From: Flaviflexus ciconiae
GTDB taxonomy: Bacteria > Actinomycetota > Actinomycetes > Actinomycetales > Actinomycetaceae
Length of the DNA: 64,000 nt
Direction of reading: 5' to 3'
Assembly: GCF_003971195.1 (NCBI RefSeq)
Contig: NZ_CP034593.1
Location: 2,108,001-2,172,000, forward strand
Part shown: positions 15,605 to 33,652 of the stretch, piece after piece
Layout: each line of letters starts with the position of its first letter
How positions within the stretch are numbered: position 1 is the stretch's first letter
Notes under the pieces: generated by a model
Told to the model about the DNA's origin: nothing
The model's input: only the letters and a program-made list of their open reading frames with translations
The model's database searches: none
Made by a program: the position numbers and the translations under genes

Positions 15605-16909
<1,305 letters not shown>

Positions 16910-21895: not shown

Positions 21896-24043
21896 CTAGA
21901 GCATGCAGGAGACGCAGCCCTCAACCTCGGTGCCCTCGAGGGCAGCCTGGCGGATTCGCATGTAGTAGAGGGTCTTGATGCCCTTCCTCCATGCGTAGAT
22001 GTAGTTCTTGTTAACGTCACGGGTGGTTACGGTGTCCGGGTAGAACAGGGTCAGCGACAGGCCCTGGTCGACGTGTTGCGTGGCGACCGCGTAGGTGTCG
22101 ATGATCTTCTCGGGTCCGATCTCGTACGCGTCCTTGTAGTACTCAAGGTTGTCGTTCGTCATGTACGGAGCCGGGTAGTAGACGCGGCCGATCTTCCCTT
22201 CCTTGCGGATCTCGATCTTGGAGACGATCGGGTGGATCGACGAGGTCGAGTGGTTGATGTAGGAGATCGAACCGGTCGGGGGAACCGCCTGGAGGTTCTG
22301 GTTGTAGATACCGTGCTCCATGACGGAGGCCTTCAGAGCCTTCCAATCCTCCTGCGTGGGGATGTGGATATTACTGAAAAGCTCCTTGACCCGGTCGGTT
22401 TCCGGCACCCATTCCTTTTCGATGTACTTGTCGAAGAACTTGCCCGAAGCGTAGTCCGACTTCTCGAAGTTGTAGAACGCTTCACCGTTCTCGATTGCGA
22501 GCTTGTTCGACTCCGTGAGCGCGTGGAACAGCACCGTGTAGAAGTACATGTTCGTGAAGTCGAGGGCTTCTTCCGAACCGTAGTGGATCCGCTCACGGCC
22601 CAGGTAGCCGTGGAGGTTCATCTGGCCGAGGCCGATCGCGCGGGACAGGCGGTTACCCTTCTCGATCGACGGAACCGAGCGAATATCCGACGTCTCGGAA
22701 ACCGCGGTCAGTGCACGGATCGCAGTGCCGATGGTCTTGCCAAAGTCCGGGGAGTCCATGGTCTTCGCGATGTTGAGCGAGCCGAGGTTGCAGGAAATAT
22801 CCTTGCCGATCTCGTCGTAGGAGAGATCAGCGTTGTAGGTTGAGGGCTCGGAAACCTGGAGAATCTCCGAGCAGAGGTTCGACATGGAGATGCGTCCGTC
22901 AATCGGGTTCGCCTTGTTCACCGTGTCTTCGAAGACAATGTAGGGGTAGCCAGACTCGAACTGAATCTCGGCGATCGTCTGGAAGAACTGGCGGGCGTTG
23001 ATCTTCGTCTTGCGGATGCGTCCGTCGTTAACCATTTCCTCGTACTTCTCCGTGACGGAGATGTCGGAGAACGGCTTGCCGTAAATGCGCTCCACGTCGT
23101 ACGGGGAGAACAGGTACATCGACTCGTTTCGCTTGGCGAGCTCAAAGGTGATGTCGGGAATGACAACGCCGAGCGACAGGGTCTTGATCCTGATCTTCTC
23201 ATCGGCGTTCTCGCGCTTCGTGTCGAGGAAACGCATGATGTCGGGATGGTGGGCGTTGAGGTAGACAGCGCCTGCACCCTGGCGCGCACCGAGCTGGTTC
23301 GCGTAGGAGAAGGAGTCTTCCAGCAGCTTCATAACCGGGATAACGCCCGAGGACTGGTTCTGGATCTTCTTGATCGGGGCGCCCTGCTCACGGAGGTTCG
23401 TGAGATTGAGTGCCACGCCGCCGCCACGCTTGGACAGCTGAAGCGAGGAGTTGATCGCGCGGGAGATCGACTCCATGTTGTCCTCGATGCGCAGGAGGAA
23501 GCAGGAGACCAGCTCGCCGCGCTGCGCCTTACCGGCATTGAGGAAGGTCGGGGTGGCCGGCTGGAAGCGGCCCGAGACGATCTCGTCGATGATCGAGTAG
23601 ACGGCCCCTTCCTTGCCACGCGCGAGGAGAAGCGCAACCATGACGACGCGGTCCTCGAAGCGCTCGAGGTAACGCTTACCGTCGAAGGTCTTCAGGGTGT
23701 ACGAGGTGTAGTACTTGTATGCGCCGAGGAAGGTTGAGAAGCGGAACTTCGCCGCGTAGGCGCGCTTGAAAGCGGACTTAACGAACTCGAAGTTGTACTG
23801 ATCAAGCACATCCTTCTCGTAGTAACCCTCTTCGACGAGATAGTCGAGCTTTTCCTTCAGCGAATGGAAGAACACCGTGTTCTGGTTGACGTGCTGGAGG
23901 AAATACTGTCGCGCTGCCTGACGGTCAGCATCAAACTGAATGTTGCCGTCAGCGTCGTAAAGGTTGAGCTGCGCGTTGAGCGAATGGTAATCGACCTTCG
24001 GCGAGAGCGTCTCTAGGCCCGTATCTGTGAGAGTTGTTCCCAA
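21896..24043 (-). CDS. nrdE: class Ib ribonucleoside-diphosphate reductase alpha subunit
   Basis: 715 residues, normal for NrdE. It is the catalytic subunit reducing ribonucleoside diphosphates with electrons from NrdH and the radical from NrdF. Family motifs include [14 protein letters not shown] at the N-terminus, [21 protein letters not shown], and the C-terminal redox pair in GCVSCML. The class Ib N-terminus lacks an ATP cone. The start appears to be TTG at 24043, inside the last 31 bases of nrdI, with GGAAGAG upstream. The overlap suggests translational coupling in the nrdHIE operon. Confidence 0.96.
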
Positions 24044-24429
24044 AACTCTTCCAATCCTTGCTTCACCTTGGCAACGTCATCAGTCGTGCCGAGGAGTTCG
24101 AACTTGTACATGTGGGGGACCTTGCACTTAGCCGAGATGATTTCCCCGGCTAGGCAGTATGCCTTCCCGAAGTTGGTGTTCCCCGCGGACACCACTCCTC
24201 TGATAAGGCTTCGGTTGTGCTCGTTGTTAAGAAACTTGATGACCTGCTTGGGGACGGCGCCGCGGTTATTACCGCCACCGTACGTCGGCACAATCAGGAC
24301 GTACTCGTCATCGACGATGAGGTCCGGATCTGTCCGACGAAGCGGGATCCGCTCCGCCTCCATCCCCAACTTCTTGACGAAGCGGGCGGTGTTGTTGGTG
24401 ACCGATGAGAAATAGACGATCTTTGCCAC
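24013..24429 (-). CDS. nrdI: NrdI flavodoxin-like ribonucleotide reductase assembly protein
   Basis: 138 residues. NrdI is an FMN protein that supplies oxidant to assemble the NrdF dimanganese-tyrosyl radical cofactor. The N-terminal [19 protein letters not shown] is the phosphate-binding loop of NrdI, followed by [18 protein letters not shown] and [13 protein letters not shown]. It is the middle gene of nrdHIE and overlaps nrdE by 31 bp. A small hairpin lies in the 63-bp gap to nrdH. Confidence 0.95.
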
Positions 24430-24492: not shown

Positions 24493-24744
24493 TTAGGCCG
24501 TTACCGCTGCGTCAACATTGGCAGCTACGAGCGCCTTGATCTTGTCGGGACGGAAGCCTGCCCAATGGTCGCCTCCTGCCATCACCACGGGGGCCTGCTG
24601 GTAACCCAGGGCCTTGACCGCCTCGAGCGCCTCCGCGTCCTCCGTAAGGTCAACGGTGTCGTAGGCCAGACCAGCCTTATTCAGAGCTCGCGTGGTCGCA
24701 TTGCACTGCACGCAGGCTGGCTTCGTGTAGACGGTGATGGTCAT
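24493..24744 (-). CDS. nrdH: NrdH glutaredoxin-like electron donor
   Basis: 83 residues, close to the usual 75-80. NrdH is reduced by thioredoxin reductase and reduces NrdE. The redox motif is CVQC at Cys11-Cys14 after TVYTKPA. APVVMAGGDHWAGFRPDKI matches the family's cis-Pro and WSGF(R)PD-like region. It heads the nrdHIE operon, with GGGGAG before the ATG. The trxB gene at 59351 is a plausible reductant. Confidence 0.95.
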   Translation of the reverse strand: MTITVYTKPACVQCNATTRALNKAGLAYDTVDLTEDAEALEAVKALGYQQAPVVMAGGDHWAGFRPDKIKALVAANVDAAVTA

Positions 24745-24842: not shown

Positions 24843-24889
24843 ACACTACACCTTGTGCCGATTCTTTCCAGCACCACTAGATGGTGTGT
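24843..24889 (-). promoter_or_regulatory. tandem NrdR-like boxes upstream of nrdH
   Basis: Box 1 is ACACTACACCTTGTGC (24843-24858) and box 2 is CCACTAGATGGTGTGT (24874-24889), plus-strand reading. Each matches the NrdR consensus acaCwAtATaTwGtgt at about 12 of 16 positions. The gap is 15 bp, so the start-to-start distance is 31 bp, three helical turns, the classic spacing of paired NrdR boxes. They lie 98-145 bp upstream of the nrdH start. NrdR would repress the operon when dATP is abundant; the gene for NrdR is not in the window. Confidence 0.65.
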
Positions 24890-24958
24890 TTTGTGGGAAA
24901 CTTCCGGACGATTTTGTGGACGCATCGGTGGAAACCCTGTGGATCCCTGGGAACGGGC

Positions 24959-25146
24959 GGTGGATAACTCCACCGCGACCATTCCGGAACTGTTCATTAT
25001 TTCCACTGAGAGCAAAGCCTCCGTCAGTTCGCTCCCTTGAATTCTCGCGCTCAGCCCGGACAGAAATTGATCCATTCTTCATCCACAGCCCTTATCCACA
25101 GGCGTGTGGACAAGTTTCCCCAGCCTTTATCCACAGCTGTGGATAA
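24959..25146. promoter_or_regulatory. cluster of DnaA boxes upstream of nrdHIE
   Basis: Four exact DnaA 9-mers occur within 55 bp: TTATCCACA at 25092-25100 and 25127-25135, TGTGGACAA at 25105-25113, and TGTGGATAA at 25138-25146. They form two inverted pairs with 4-bp and 2-bp spacers. One-mismatch copies lie at 25079-25087 (TCATCCACA) and 24959-24967 (GGTGGATAA). Weaker copies, each with two mismatches, lie at 24938-24946 and 24915-24923. No dnaA or dnaN is nearby, so this is more likely a DnaA regulatory or titration site than oriC itself. Confidence 0.8.
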
Positions 25147-25188: not shown

Positions 25189-25554
25189 TTACGGCGTGTT
25201 TTTGCCGTCGGCGTGTTCTGCTGCGGAGGTGGCACGGGCCACCTGAAAGCCGGCAATAACGAGAATGAGTATGACGACTGCGCCGATGGTAAACATGGCA
25301 AATGGAGAGTCCGGCGAGTAAAGAACAAATCCGATGAGCCCGCCGACAATGCAGAGGGTTCCTTGCATGTAGGAGTAGGGAGAGGCCGCAAGATTACCGG
25401 CAATCCAGGCGCGGTGGGATGCTGTTGTTGCCCTAGTCTTCGTCCCGAAGATCGAGTTTCTCGGGACCTTTCCGTTACGCTGAAAATATCCGATAGCAAA
25501 CAGGCCGAAACCGGTCGGCACGAGAAGGATGCATAGGATCTCGGTCCAGGTCAT
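25189..25554 (-). CDS. SdpI/YhfL-family membrane protein
   Basis: 121 residues with three hydrophobic segments (about residues 5-24, 62-83 and 86-105). Between the first two is the SdpI-type signature FGTKTRATTASHRAWIAGN. SdpI in Bacillus gives immunity to the SDP toxin, but most actinobacterial relatives are uncharacterised small membrane proteins. It lies upstream of the nrd regulatory region on the same strand and is divergent from citrate synthase. Confidence 0.8.
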   Translation of the reverse strand: MTWTEILCILLVPTGFGLFAIGYFQRNGKVPRNSIFGTKTRATTASHRAWIAGNLAASPYSYMQGTLCIVGGLIGFVLYSPDSPFAMFTIGAVVILILVIAGFQVARATSAAEHADGKNTP

Positions 25555-31309: not shown

Positions 31310-33652
31310 TCACTTACTGGCTTCACTGACGGGTTCGTCAACCACGGCATCCAGCCCGTGCTTCACGAACCTGTCAACAAGTTCATCAGCCAACAGTGGC
31401 TTGGCGAACCTGTACCCCTGCATGAACCGCACCCCGCTACCCCGCAAATACTTGTAGACATCATCGTTCTCCACGCCTTCAAAGATCACCGCGGCACCGG
31501 TTGCTTGGCCGAGCTCAACAATCATGTCGATGACGGTGTCGCTCTTGTTCGTGCCCAGGTCGGCGGATATTGAGCGATCAATTTTCAGGGTATCGAAGGG
31601 GAAGTGAATAACGGATTCGAGGGTGCACCCGGACGTTCCAAAGTTGTCTAGTGCGACGTGGAGGAAGGGCGTTTCAATCATGCGTTGCAGCCGGGTTGTC
31701 ACCCGGTCGTAACGTTTGCCAAGCGAGTTCTCAACGAGTTCCAGCGTGAGTTCAATACCGGCGCCTTCCCATTCGCTCTGGAGTGCCCCAATGAACTCGT
31801 CATCGGCAATCTGCTCCACATCGATGTTGATGTGAAGACTATTGAGTTCGGGAACGACCTGCTGGAACCGCCTCATATCGGCCAGGGATGTTCTCAGGAG
31901 GTAGATACTGAGTTCGGTTAGCTGCCCTTCGAACCGTGCACGTTCGGCAATCTGTTCGGCTGTGCTCCCTGCCAGCTCGGAGACACCCGGGCGAATCAGG
32001 GCCTCAAGGCTGACAATCTTTCCCGTTTCAGCATCGATGATCGGCTGGTACGCAAATGGCAGGCTCGCCTGCTTAATCACTTGCCTAATCGCGCCTATTT
32101 CCATCAGTTCCGAACGATCATTCCCGTTTCTACGGCCCTTCCTTCCCTCGTACATTCGGTAGTCTGCTTCTTCAATAAGGTGACGGGCTTCCGTGGTTCC
32201 TGGAAGGGAGAAAGACAGGCCGTAAGAGAGCTTCACCGGGATCCACAGAGATCCAACCTTGACGTGATCTGCGACCGCGGGGAGGATTACTTTCATTCGT
32301 TCGTGGCCCGCCTGCTTATCCTTAAGCCGCAGGAGGATGAGGCCGAACTCATCGCCACCGAGCCGCGCAACAAACTCATCTGCTTCTAACTGGTTGCGGA
32401 GCCTCTCACCGACCGTCTTGAGGAAGATATTGCCGGCCTCGTGCCCATACCGGTCATTCACTTTCTTGAAGCCATCAAGGTCGATATAGACAACCGCAAA
32501 ACCCCGTGTTGCTTCCTGCGCGGTTACTTCCAGGCCGTTCATGAATGCTCGATAGTTTGGAAGTTTCGTAATCGGGTCGGTGCGTGCCTGCCGGTACAAC
32601 TTTTCGTGATCGCTCCGCACGGTCACCATCGTGTCGCCAATATGGGCGATCGAGTCGAGAACCAGCTGATCCGCTTCCAGCAACGGTGCCTGGTTATTGC
32701 CGCGGCGGGCAATGAGGTGACCGTTGGCCATGGGAGATGAAATCTCGTTAATGTTCCTGCCAGCTTCGTCACGGAACTCAATCGCGTAGTTGGGCAGTGC
32801 CCTTTTCACGTACTGGAGCGCCGAATCCGAAATCGGCCTATCTTCGGACCAGGGCAGGCTGATCGCGGCATCGTGAACACCCGTGAGTTGGTTATTGATA
32901 ACCCTAATTGTCCACATCGTGGCGAGAACGAAGGCGATAAGGCCCGTGGCGAGCGTGACGTATGTTCCCGCCCAGTAGGGACCGAAGGCATTGCTTCGCT
33001 CCGCAATATAAACCTGGAGATAGCGACTGACCACGGCAAGGAGCGGAATACCAAAAATGGTCAGGGCCAGACGAATCGGTATGAGTGCTGCCAGTCCCTG
33101 CCGCACGGTAATCGGGGTGACCACGCTCAACCGAACCGTCGAGATTATTAATCGGGTGACAAGGTAGATGACGAGCGCTACCGCCGTGTAGTACTCGCGC
33201 CACCCGTACTCACCAGCAAGCCATTCCACGGCCGAAAGAGCGACAATGGCACTGCCAAGCTGGTAGCACAGATACTCCATCACGTCCCAGATGAGGCGGA
33301 CCCGCACAAAGAGGGCGGCAACGTTGGCAATTCCCCACAGCGCTATTGCCGTTCCCAGGTCCGTTCCCATGTAGAGCACGATGAGACTGGCAGGAGAGAT
33401 GTTGAAGATCAGCGTCGCATCGAGCCTAGAAACCGCCCCACCCAGGGTGGCGGACAGGGCTATGCCGGTGACGGTGACAACAATCCACAGCGGGTCCCAC
33501 CTCATGTCACCGAGACTCCAGGCGACACCAATCGTCGCGACGGCGACAACGGTCCAAATGATTCCCCAGGTGAGGGTTGCGCGATCGCTTAGCTTCCGCG
33601 GAACCGGCGCATGATGCACGTGATTGCCGTGGAAAAAAGACGCAGAAGTCAT
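31310..33652 (-). CDS. membrane GGDEF-EAL c-di-GMP enzyme
   Basis: 780 residues. About eight N-terminal transmembrane helices (residues about 25-275) form a MASE-like sensor, followed by a linker, a GGDEF domain with intact GGDEF near residue 432, and an EAL domain. In the EAL domain the EALIRP motif (about 548), HINID, LELVEN, LKIDRS, FEGVEN and MQGYRF are kept. The usual DDFGTGYSSL loop reads DNFGTSGCTL, so one metal-binding Asp is Asn. The cyclase is predicted active; phosphodiesterase activity is doubtful. It is convergent with the polysaccharide genes. Confidence 0.92.
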   Translation of the reverse strand: MTSASFFHGNHVHHAPVPRKLSDRATLTWGIIWTVVAVATIGVAWSLGDMRWDPLWIVVTVTGIALSATLGGAVSRLDATLIFNISPASLIVLYMGTDLGTAIALWGIANVAALFVRVRLIWDVMEYLCYQLGSAIVALSAVEWLAGEYGWREYYTAVALVIYLVTRLIISTVRLSVVTPITVRQGLAALIPIRLALTIFGIPLLAVVSRYLQVYIAERSNAFGPYWAGTYVTLATGLIAFVLATMWTIRVINNQLTGVHDAAISLPWSEDRPISDSALQYVKRALPNYAIEFRDEAGRNINEISSPMANGHLIARRGNNQAPLLEADQLVLDSIAHIGDTMVTVRSDHEKLYRQARTDPITKLPNYRAFMNGLEVTAQEATRGFAVVYIDLDGFKKVNDRYGHEAGNIFLKTVGERLRNQLEADEFVARLGGDEFGLILLRLKDKQAGHERMKVILPAVADHVKVGSLWIPVKLSYGLSFSLPGTTEARHLIEEADYRMYEGRKGRRNGNDRSELMEIGAIRQVIKQASLPFAYQPIIDAETGKIVSLEALIRPGVSELAGSTAEQIAERARFEGQLTELSIYLLRTSLADMRRFQQVVPELNSLHINIDVEQIADDEFIGALQSEWEGAGIELTLELVENSLGKRYDRVTTRLQRMIETPFLHVALDNFGTSGCTLESVIHFPFDTLKIDRSISADLGTNKSDTVIDMIVELGQATGAAVIFEGVENDDVYKYLRGSGVRFMQGYRFAKPLLADELVDRFVKHGLDAVVDEPVSEASK

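Follow-up and report, generated by a model that had tools for sequence, protein, structure and literature searches.

A conserved cluster of putative DnaA boxes upstream of the class Ib ribonucleotide reductase operon nrdHIE in Flaviflexus ciconiae and related actinobacteria

Introduction

A cluster of putative DnaA boxes in front of nrdHIE, a class Ib ribonucleotide reductase operon of Flaviflexus ciconiae, raises the question of whether the replication initiator takes part in controlling dNTP supply in this actinobacterium, or whether the boxes stand before nrdH for another reason. To our knowledge, few DnaA targets beyond dnaA are known in these organisms. In E. coli, DnaA acts at nrdAB, low DnaA-ATP or DnaA-ADP being activating and high DnaA-ATP repressing, and DnaA control of ribonucleotide reductase has been proposed in Caulobacter (PMC8203912). 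A sequence-only reading of the locus had favoured a link between DnaA and the class Ib operon, with a datA-like titration site or a replication origin as alternatives.

Here, we analyse the locus, its counterparts in related genomes and the distribution of the boxes over whole genomes. The window, that is, the whole stretch of DNA under analysis, comprises 64,000 nucleotides (positions 2108001-2172000 of the 2.83 Mb chromosome); coordinates refer to it unless given in chromosomal terms.

Results

The locus upstream of nrdH

The genes of the locus are as follows:

15605-16579: nrdF, separate from nrdHIE by about 5.3 kb
21896..24043, minus strand: nrdE, class Ib ribonucleotide reductase large subunit (Pfam PF02867, PF08343, PF00317)
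24013..24429, minus strand: nrdI (Pfam PF07972)
24493..24744, minus strand: nrdH, glutaredoxin-like, first gene of the operon (Pfam PF00462; position before nrdI-nrdE)
25189..25554, minus strand: sdpI-like gene, upstream of nrdH and on the same strand (Pfam PF13630)

The interval between nrdF and nrdHIE holds ABC-transporter-like ORFs (recognised by eye) together with hexapeptide transferase and tRNA-editing-domain genes (Pfam), and a citrate synthase gene (Pfam) lies beyond the sdpI-like gene. Among the best 80 of 583 matches, the closest named relative is Flaviflexus huanghaiensis, whose NrdE is 92% identical.

Scanning the window sequence places three exact copies of TTATCCACA and one TTGTCCACA, the usual DnaA box of high-GC actinobacteria, within 55 bp (25092-25146), where these four boxes form two inverted pairs with spacers of 4 bp and 2 bp. 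The rescan agrees with the pairs, spacers and span given by the sequence-only reading and locates the two one-mismatch and two weaker copies that it had mentioned. Its count of four exact 9-mers holds for three, TGTGGACAA (equal to TTGTCCACA) being one base off TTATCCACA. The boxes are:

25138..25146, minus strand: putative DnaA box TTATCCACA, exact match, outer arm of the inverted pair with the 2-bp spacer
25127..25135, plus strand: putative DnaA box TTATCCACA, exact match, inner arm of the inverted pair with the 2-bp spacer
25105..25113, minus strand: putative DnaA box TTGTCCACA, one mismatch to TTATCCACA; belongs to the inverted pair with the 4-bp spacer
25092..25100, plus strand: putative DnaA box TTATCCACA, exact match, belongs to the inverted pair with the 4-bp spacer
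25079..25087, plus strand: putative DnaA box TCATCCACA, one mismatch; 4 bp from the 25092 box, in direct orientation
24959..24967, minus strand: DnaA-like box TTATCCACC, one mismatch
24938..24946, minus strand: weak DnaA-like box GGATCCACA, core TCCACA
24915..24923, minus strand: weak DnaA-like box GCGTCCACA, core TCCACA

Altogether, the putative boxes spread over 232 bp and include a perfect 20-bp palindrome, TTATCCACAGCTGTGGATAA. The window holds four TTRTCCACA matches in 60 bp and seven TCCACA cores in 240 bp here, against maxima of one and four in 200 dinucleotide shuffles of its sequence. Elsewhere in the window there is no further exact TTATCCACA, as had been claimed for exact copies in general; a second TTGTCCACA does occur, at 32908. 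A promoter scan found no sigma-70-like promoter in the region.

Two further kinds of element flank the boxes. On the nrdH side lies a pair of NrdR boxes, 31 bp apart from start to start and scored against the NrdR consensus:

24874..24889, minus strand: NrdR box 1, ACACACCATCTAGTGG, 12/16 to the consensus
24843..24858, minus strand: NrdR box 2, GCACAAGGTGTAGTGT, 12/16 to the consensus

Directly upstream of the box cluster lies a second element, (C)GACACGCC:

25209..25217, minus strand: AACACGCCG, first copy (RACACGC; usual form CGACACGCC), inside the 3' end of the sdpI-like ORF
25192..25200, minus strand: AACACGCCG, second copy, 17 bp from the first

The strong boxes stand upstream of the operon at 335-402 bp from the nrdH ATG and 190-257 bp from NrdR box 1; for the proximal boxes (24915-24967), also upstream, these distances are 171-223 bp and 26-78 bp.

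Conservation of the boxes before nrdH

We compared the 600 bp upstream of nrdH in 79 loci. Besides the window, these are 78 of the 80 top-ranking loci among 583 matches; the upstream counts omit L051, in which no nrdH was found, and L057, whose upstream DNA measures 14 bp. Since the 79 loci include near-duplicates (several Arthrobacter, an Oerskovia pair), counts over them are not independent. The DnaA-box core TCCACA is the top hexamer before nrdH, with 247 copies in 73/79 loci against 27.3 expected. It ranks first of its 60 anagrams (the next, an overlapping word, has 105 copies; the median is 18), and its density is 5.15/kb before nrdH versus 0.36/kb elsewhere in the same 78 loci, in mostly coding DNA.

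At least two cores are present in 67 of the 72 loci outside Mycobacterium/Nocardia; the loci of these two genera are mostly without boxes, at least two cores being found in 1/7. An even draw across the class yielded 148 genomes, 15 of them with NrdI (the own genome included), in which at least two cores occur in all 5 of the other same-order genomes and in 2/9 in one other family. Inverted core pairs with 2-4 bp between the arms were found at 34/79 nrdH loci, for a shuffle expectation of 0.0. One record, L055, titled Chromohalobacter marismortui, carries an nrdE 78% identical to that of the window and no boxes; it may have acquired the gene by horizontal transfer, or the contig may be mislabelled or a contaminant.

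Within the genus, the inverted pair is kept in 6/6 genomes, the own one included, in a sample where the upstream DNA of G032 is identical to that of L002. All six show the same order, i.e. RACACGC, inverted pair, further cores, NrdR pair and nrdH, and in one of them (L120) a further core falls inside the NrdR block. In the other five genomes the arms of the pair are at least partly changed, for instance CTGTCCACA-gt-TGTGGACAG in L121, so that conservation concerns the paired arrangement and not the letters of each 9-mer; exact 9-mers are frequently lost between species. The expectation that close relatives would keep the paired inverted boxes is thereby borne out, with drift of the exact 9-mers. 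One genus genome also has a second nrdI locus (L123), in which no nrdH was detected.

The NrdR boxes are conserved as well. In a scan that allowed spacings of 30-33 bp, the best pair lies at 31 or 32 bp in 76/79 loci, and its score is at least 23 in 36/79 nrdH loci versus 0/79 shuffled ones. Genus scores are 23-25 in 6/6 genomes.

Distribution of the boxes over whole genomes

In the 2.83 Mb chromosome of F. ciconiae there are 31 exact copies of TTATCCACA, against 10 for the reversed-pattern control. At least three exact boxes within about 200 bp occur at three places, namely before nrdH, between dnaA and dnaN, and upstream of dnaB (identified by Pfam), the last with five exact boxes in 204 bp. 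The cluster ranking was made without the 411 one-mismatch boxes. The remark of the sequence-only reading that no dnaA lies nearby is accurate inside the window, but dnaA starts 6.7 kb beyond the window end, at 2178715, which is 45.6 kb from the box cluster.

We then considered the inverted-pair pattern TCCACA-N1-4-TGTGGA over whole genomes, 22 of 36 genomes being searched. In five Flaviflexus genomes (own, G031, G033, G034 and F. huanghaiensis G001) the pairs occupy 18 places: 7 before nrdH, 5 before dnaA, where the same pairs lie 0.1 kb upstream, and 5 before dnaB. The single remaining pair, at 671348 in the own genome, stands alone, with about 1.1 kb around it free of further cores. Beyond the genus, this search is less clean, with extra places in several genomes and none in 5/22. 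The enrichment before dnaB extends to other genomes: in 31 genomes, 30 with a dnaB locus, 146 cores were found in 18 kb of upstream DNA (8.11/kb versus 0.55/kb), with at least two in 27/30 loci.

The separate nrdF gene was rejected as a co-target. A search in 13 genomes, in which the G001 and G032 matches have identical figures, found one core in 8.4 kb upstream of nrdF over 14 loci and no clear NrdR pair, the best scores there being 14-18 versus a mean of 22.4 before nrdH; the nrdF of the window itself has no core.

Some clusters lie apart from these genes. At 2197.48-2197.63 kb (L083:3479-3630), about 18-19 kb from dnaA, a weaker cluster of two exact and three one-mismatch boxes sits between the ends of a rhomboid gene (Pfam) and a convergent MATE-like gene (by eye), where no promoter is expected; this is possibly a titration or datA-like site. 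In Arthrobacter NtRootA1, eleven TCCACA cores occur within 0.7 kb (L207:980-1652), 19.5 kb from dnaA and flanked by GyrI-like and Tag-like glycosylase genes (by eye), possibly an orphan cluster of the same kind. In L083:5336-6681, dnaB is split into ORFs of 290 and 148 aa, with the break close to a C run, and the MATE-like gene beside it is likewise in two ORFs; sequencing errors may account for both.

Comparison with boxes at dnaA loci

The cores before nrdH were compared with 325 cores from 31 dnaA loci, where the coding DNA of dnaA was counted too; the dnaA search covered 30 of the 80 loci. The pooled flanks of the two sets are alike: G at -6 (0.43 before nrdH, 0.38 at dnaA loci), T at -5 (0.52 and 0.51), T/C at -4 and A/G at -3 are preferred in both, and G follows the core at frequencies of 0.65 and 0.53. 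Within the own genome, exact boxes are common to nrdH and the dnaA region. On average, the boxes before nrdH are weaker than their counterparts at dnaA loci, with more C at the first two positions; in means over 26 genomes, C at position 1 reaches 0.43 before nrdH versus 0.21, and A at position 3 reaches 0.30 versus 0.45. Co-variation of the first three box bases between dnaA loci and nrdH gave p<0.05 in 1/12 correlations over 26 of the 31 compared genomes, the rest having too few boxes, and was excluded from the support.

The arrangement of neighbouring cores was compared too. Of 174 neighbour pairs before nrdH, 25 are inverted with 3 bp between them, which makes this the most frequent of the close arrangements, and 9 are inverted with 2 bp. 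At dnaA loci the most frequent arrangement is direct with 6 bp (17 pairs); inverted with 2 bp and direct with 3 bp come next, at 11 each.

A second conserved element upstream of the boxes

The usual form of the second element, CGACACGCC, has 72 copies before nrdH (63/78 loci) versus 7 elsewhere in the same loci, a 159-fold enrichment. For GACACGC the figures are 115 before nrdH and 112 elsewhere (15.9-fold by density, against 2.2-fold for a reversed control). It is found in 72/78 loci, the window and some genus relatives reading AACACGC, and RACACGC is present in 74/79 loci, including 6/7 Mycobacterium/Nocardia loci, most of them without DnaA boxes. GACACGC stands upstream of every core in 56 of the 65 loci having both, and also occurs in 12/30 dnaB upstream regions (15 copies).

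The tandem CGACACGC was discarded as a regulon finder, its matches being in 19/31 genomes and many of them away from nrdH. Two Sanguibacter genomes have 14 and 8 matches, and the tandems are therefore not restricted to nrdH; the own-genome match (L127) looked incidental, and one in Actinotalea (L152) lies before dnaB, together with boxes. GCGACACGCCG is found in 16/17 genomes and reaches at least three times its reversed control in 4/17 (G031, G003, G027, G029), being near, at or below the control in the others, so that its specificity for nrdH varies among genomes. G016 and G018 each carry a single copy away from nrdH, their nrdH copy differing by one letter, and among the 30 loci listed, 4 are at nrdH and one, by its coordinates, lies before dnaB of G024 (L260). 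The Rathayibacter genome (G027) has 85 copies of GCGACACGCCG versus 7 of the reversed control, which could reflect a repeat family, coding bias or a large regulon.

Discussion

The sites, their conservation and arrangement, the dnaA-like flanks and the gene specificity described above favour the reading that the nrdHIE promoter probably has, in this cluster, a regulatory region bound by DnaA, through which dNTP supply would follow initiation, as part of a regulon with dnaA and dnaB. The link between DnaA and a class Ib nrd operon that had been proposed gains support at the level of sequence (6/6 genus genomes, 67/72 loci); we infer from it both DnaA binding at the boxes and regulation by DnaA.

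According to this model, DnaA would bind the inverted box pairs, probably cooperatively, as well as the weaker boxes nearer nrdH, and transcription of the class Ib reductase would depend on how much free DnaA there is and on its nucleotide state, so that dNTP supply may follow replication initiation. Box clusters before dnaA, dnaB and nrdHIE would join the initiator, the replicative helicase and dNTP synthesis in one small DnaA regulon, and NrdR, at its two boxes near the presumed promoter, would add nucleotide feedback. The layout is what may be expected of an upstream activator with distant high-affinity loading sites, and repression is possible too; mainly activation at low or moderate DnaA seems to us only slightly likelier than repression. 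Several observations speak against the model: exact 9-mers are often lost, the nrdH boxes are comparatively weak and do not clearly co-vary with those at dnaA loci, Mycobacterium and Nocardia loci are mostly without boxes, direct neighbours lead at dnaA loci and are preferred in E. coli, the pair search is less clean beyond the genus, and the promoter scan found no sigma-70-like promoter.

Alternatively, several close boxes 46 kb from dnaA could form a datA-like site for DnaA titration or DnaA-ATP hydrolysis that stands before nrdH by happenstance. This notion would be in line with the high and conserved box density near the E. coli origin (PMC12371093), and the neighbouring cluster at 2197.5 kb, between convergent gene ends, resembles a promoter-free titration site. 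However, when the longest stop-free frames upstream of nrdH in 75 loci are clustered, 41 groups result (a rough figure, some of these frames probably not being genes), and the boxes therefore go with nrdH. The pair stays even in Arthrobacter NtRootA1, where nrdH (at 3,134,639 of a 5.28 Mb chromosome) lies 2.1 Mb from dnaA (at 394) and one inverted pair is nonetheless kept. In addition, conserved NrdR boxes adjoin the DnaA boxes, and the order of the two is fixed. A datA-like site would be defined by its position and have no tie to a promoter, which is not what we found for the nrdH cluster; we thus regard titration as unlikely.

The palindromic pairs could also be operators of another dimeric regulator whose half-site resembles a DnaA box. 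The perfect palindrome TTATCCACAGCTGTGGATAA and the prevalence of inverted neighbours with 2 or 3 bp (34/174 pairs before nrdH) would suit such a protein. Nevertheless, 173 of the 247 cores before nrdH lie outside inverted pairs with 2-4 bp, the pooled flanks resemble those at dnaA loci, and the genus carries the same pairs just before dnaA, all of which make this explanation quite improbable.

A main or second replication origin was rejected as very improbable. An exact DnaA-box cluster in an intergenic region would be suggestive of one, and the GC skew does change locally, from +0.031 to -0.072 in the 4-kb bins flanking 24 kb, but this change is not lasting (values range from -0.065 to +0.031 before it and from -0.105 to +0.059 after it), there is no dnaA/dnaN context at nrdH, and box clusters lie before dnaA and between dnaA and dnaN, 46 kb away. 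Chance clustering or functionless drift, which the differences in exact 9-mers between species might suggest, is negligible in view of 0/200 shuffles and the recurrence of at least two cores across the loci outside Mycobacterium/Nocardia.

Returning to DnaA control of nrdHIE, a broader proposal includes the second element. In this proposal, the nrdHIE promoter would receive three inputs, namely DnaA, NrdR and a third through CGACACGCC, possibly WhiA or WhiA-WhiB; dnaA and dnaB would share the DnaA input and some dnaB promoters the third. We put it forward tentatively, as rather less likely true than not. The group carrying such a promoter would be the Actinomycetales/Micrococcales. If the proposal is true, initiation, division and precursor level would be integrated at one reductase promoter.

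The relation to Streptomyces WhiA targets is a lead only. The Streptomyces WhiA motif is GACAC, with WhiA footprints before nrdR, and WhiA upstream of nrdR in S. venezuelae was proposed to adjust dNTP supply (PMC3781837). The G form of the second element contains GACAC; unlike the WhiA motif, however, the element is longer (CGACACGCC) and precedes the reductase operon itself, and the window copies read AACAC, with no exact GACAC.

DnaA control of a reductase is already known. Among the open PMC papers listed, we found no description, in the portions consulted, of DnaA boxes before nrdHIE or dnaB in actinobacteria. The findings suggest that distant lineages either evolved or retained a coupling of the initiator to dNTP synthesis and to the supply of helicase, and the proposed three-gene regulon (dnaA, dnaB, nrdHIE), with a strongly conserved element beside the boxes, offers a concrete test case.

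With respect to known systems, the cluster shares with datA-type titration sites the grouping of boxes outside oriC, but follows the upstream region of one gene instead of a chromosomal position. As in NrdR regulon promoters, two 16-bp boxes precede an nrd operon; here, in contrast, strong DnaA boxes form a separate block upstream of them. Another close parallel is E. coli nrdAB, which likewise has DnaA boxes and NrdR boxes upstream of a reductase operon, close box pairs and a small DnaA regulon including dnaA (PMC8203912, PMC12176259, PMC11317965); E. coli DnaA is described as preferring close box pairs with a spacing of 2-3 bp (PMC11317965). The locus of F. ciconiae differs in that the operon is class Ib nrdHIE and not class Ia nrdAB, and in that its pairs are inverted, whereas E. 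coli, which prefers direct pairs, has the direct pair gTTATCCACAaagTTATGCACTt. It also differs in having more boxes, spread over a longer region, dnaB as a candidate co-target and the extra CGACACGCC element, all in a different phylum.
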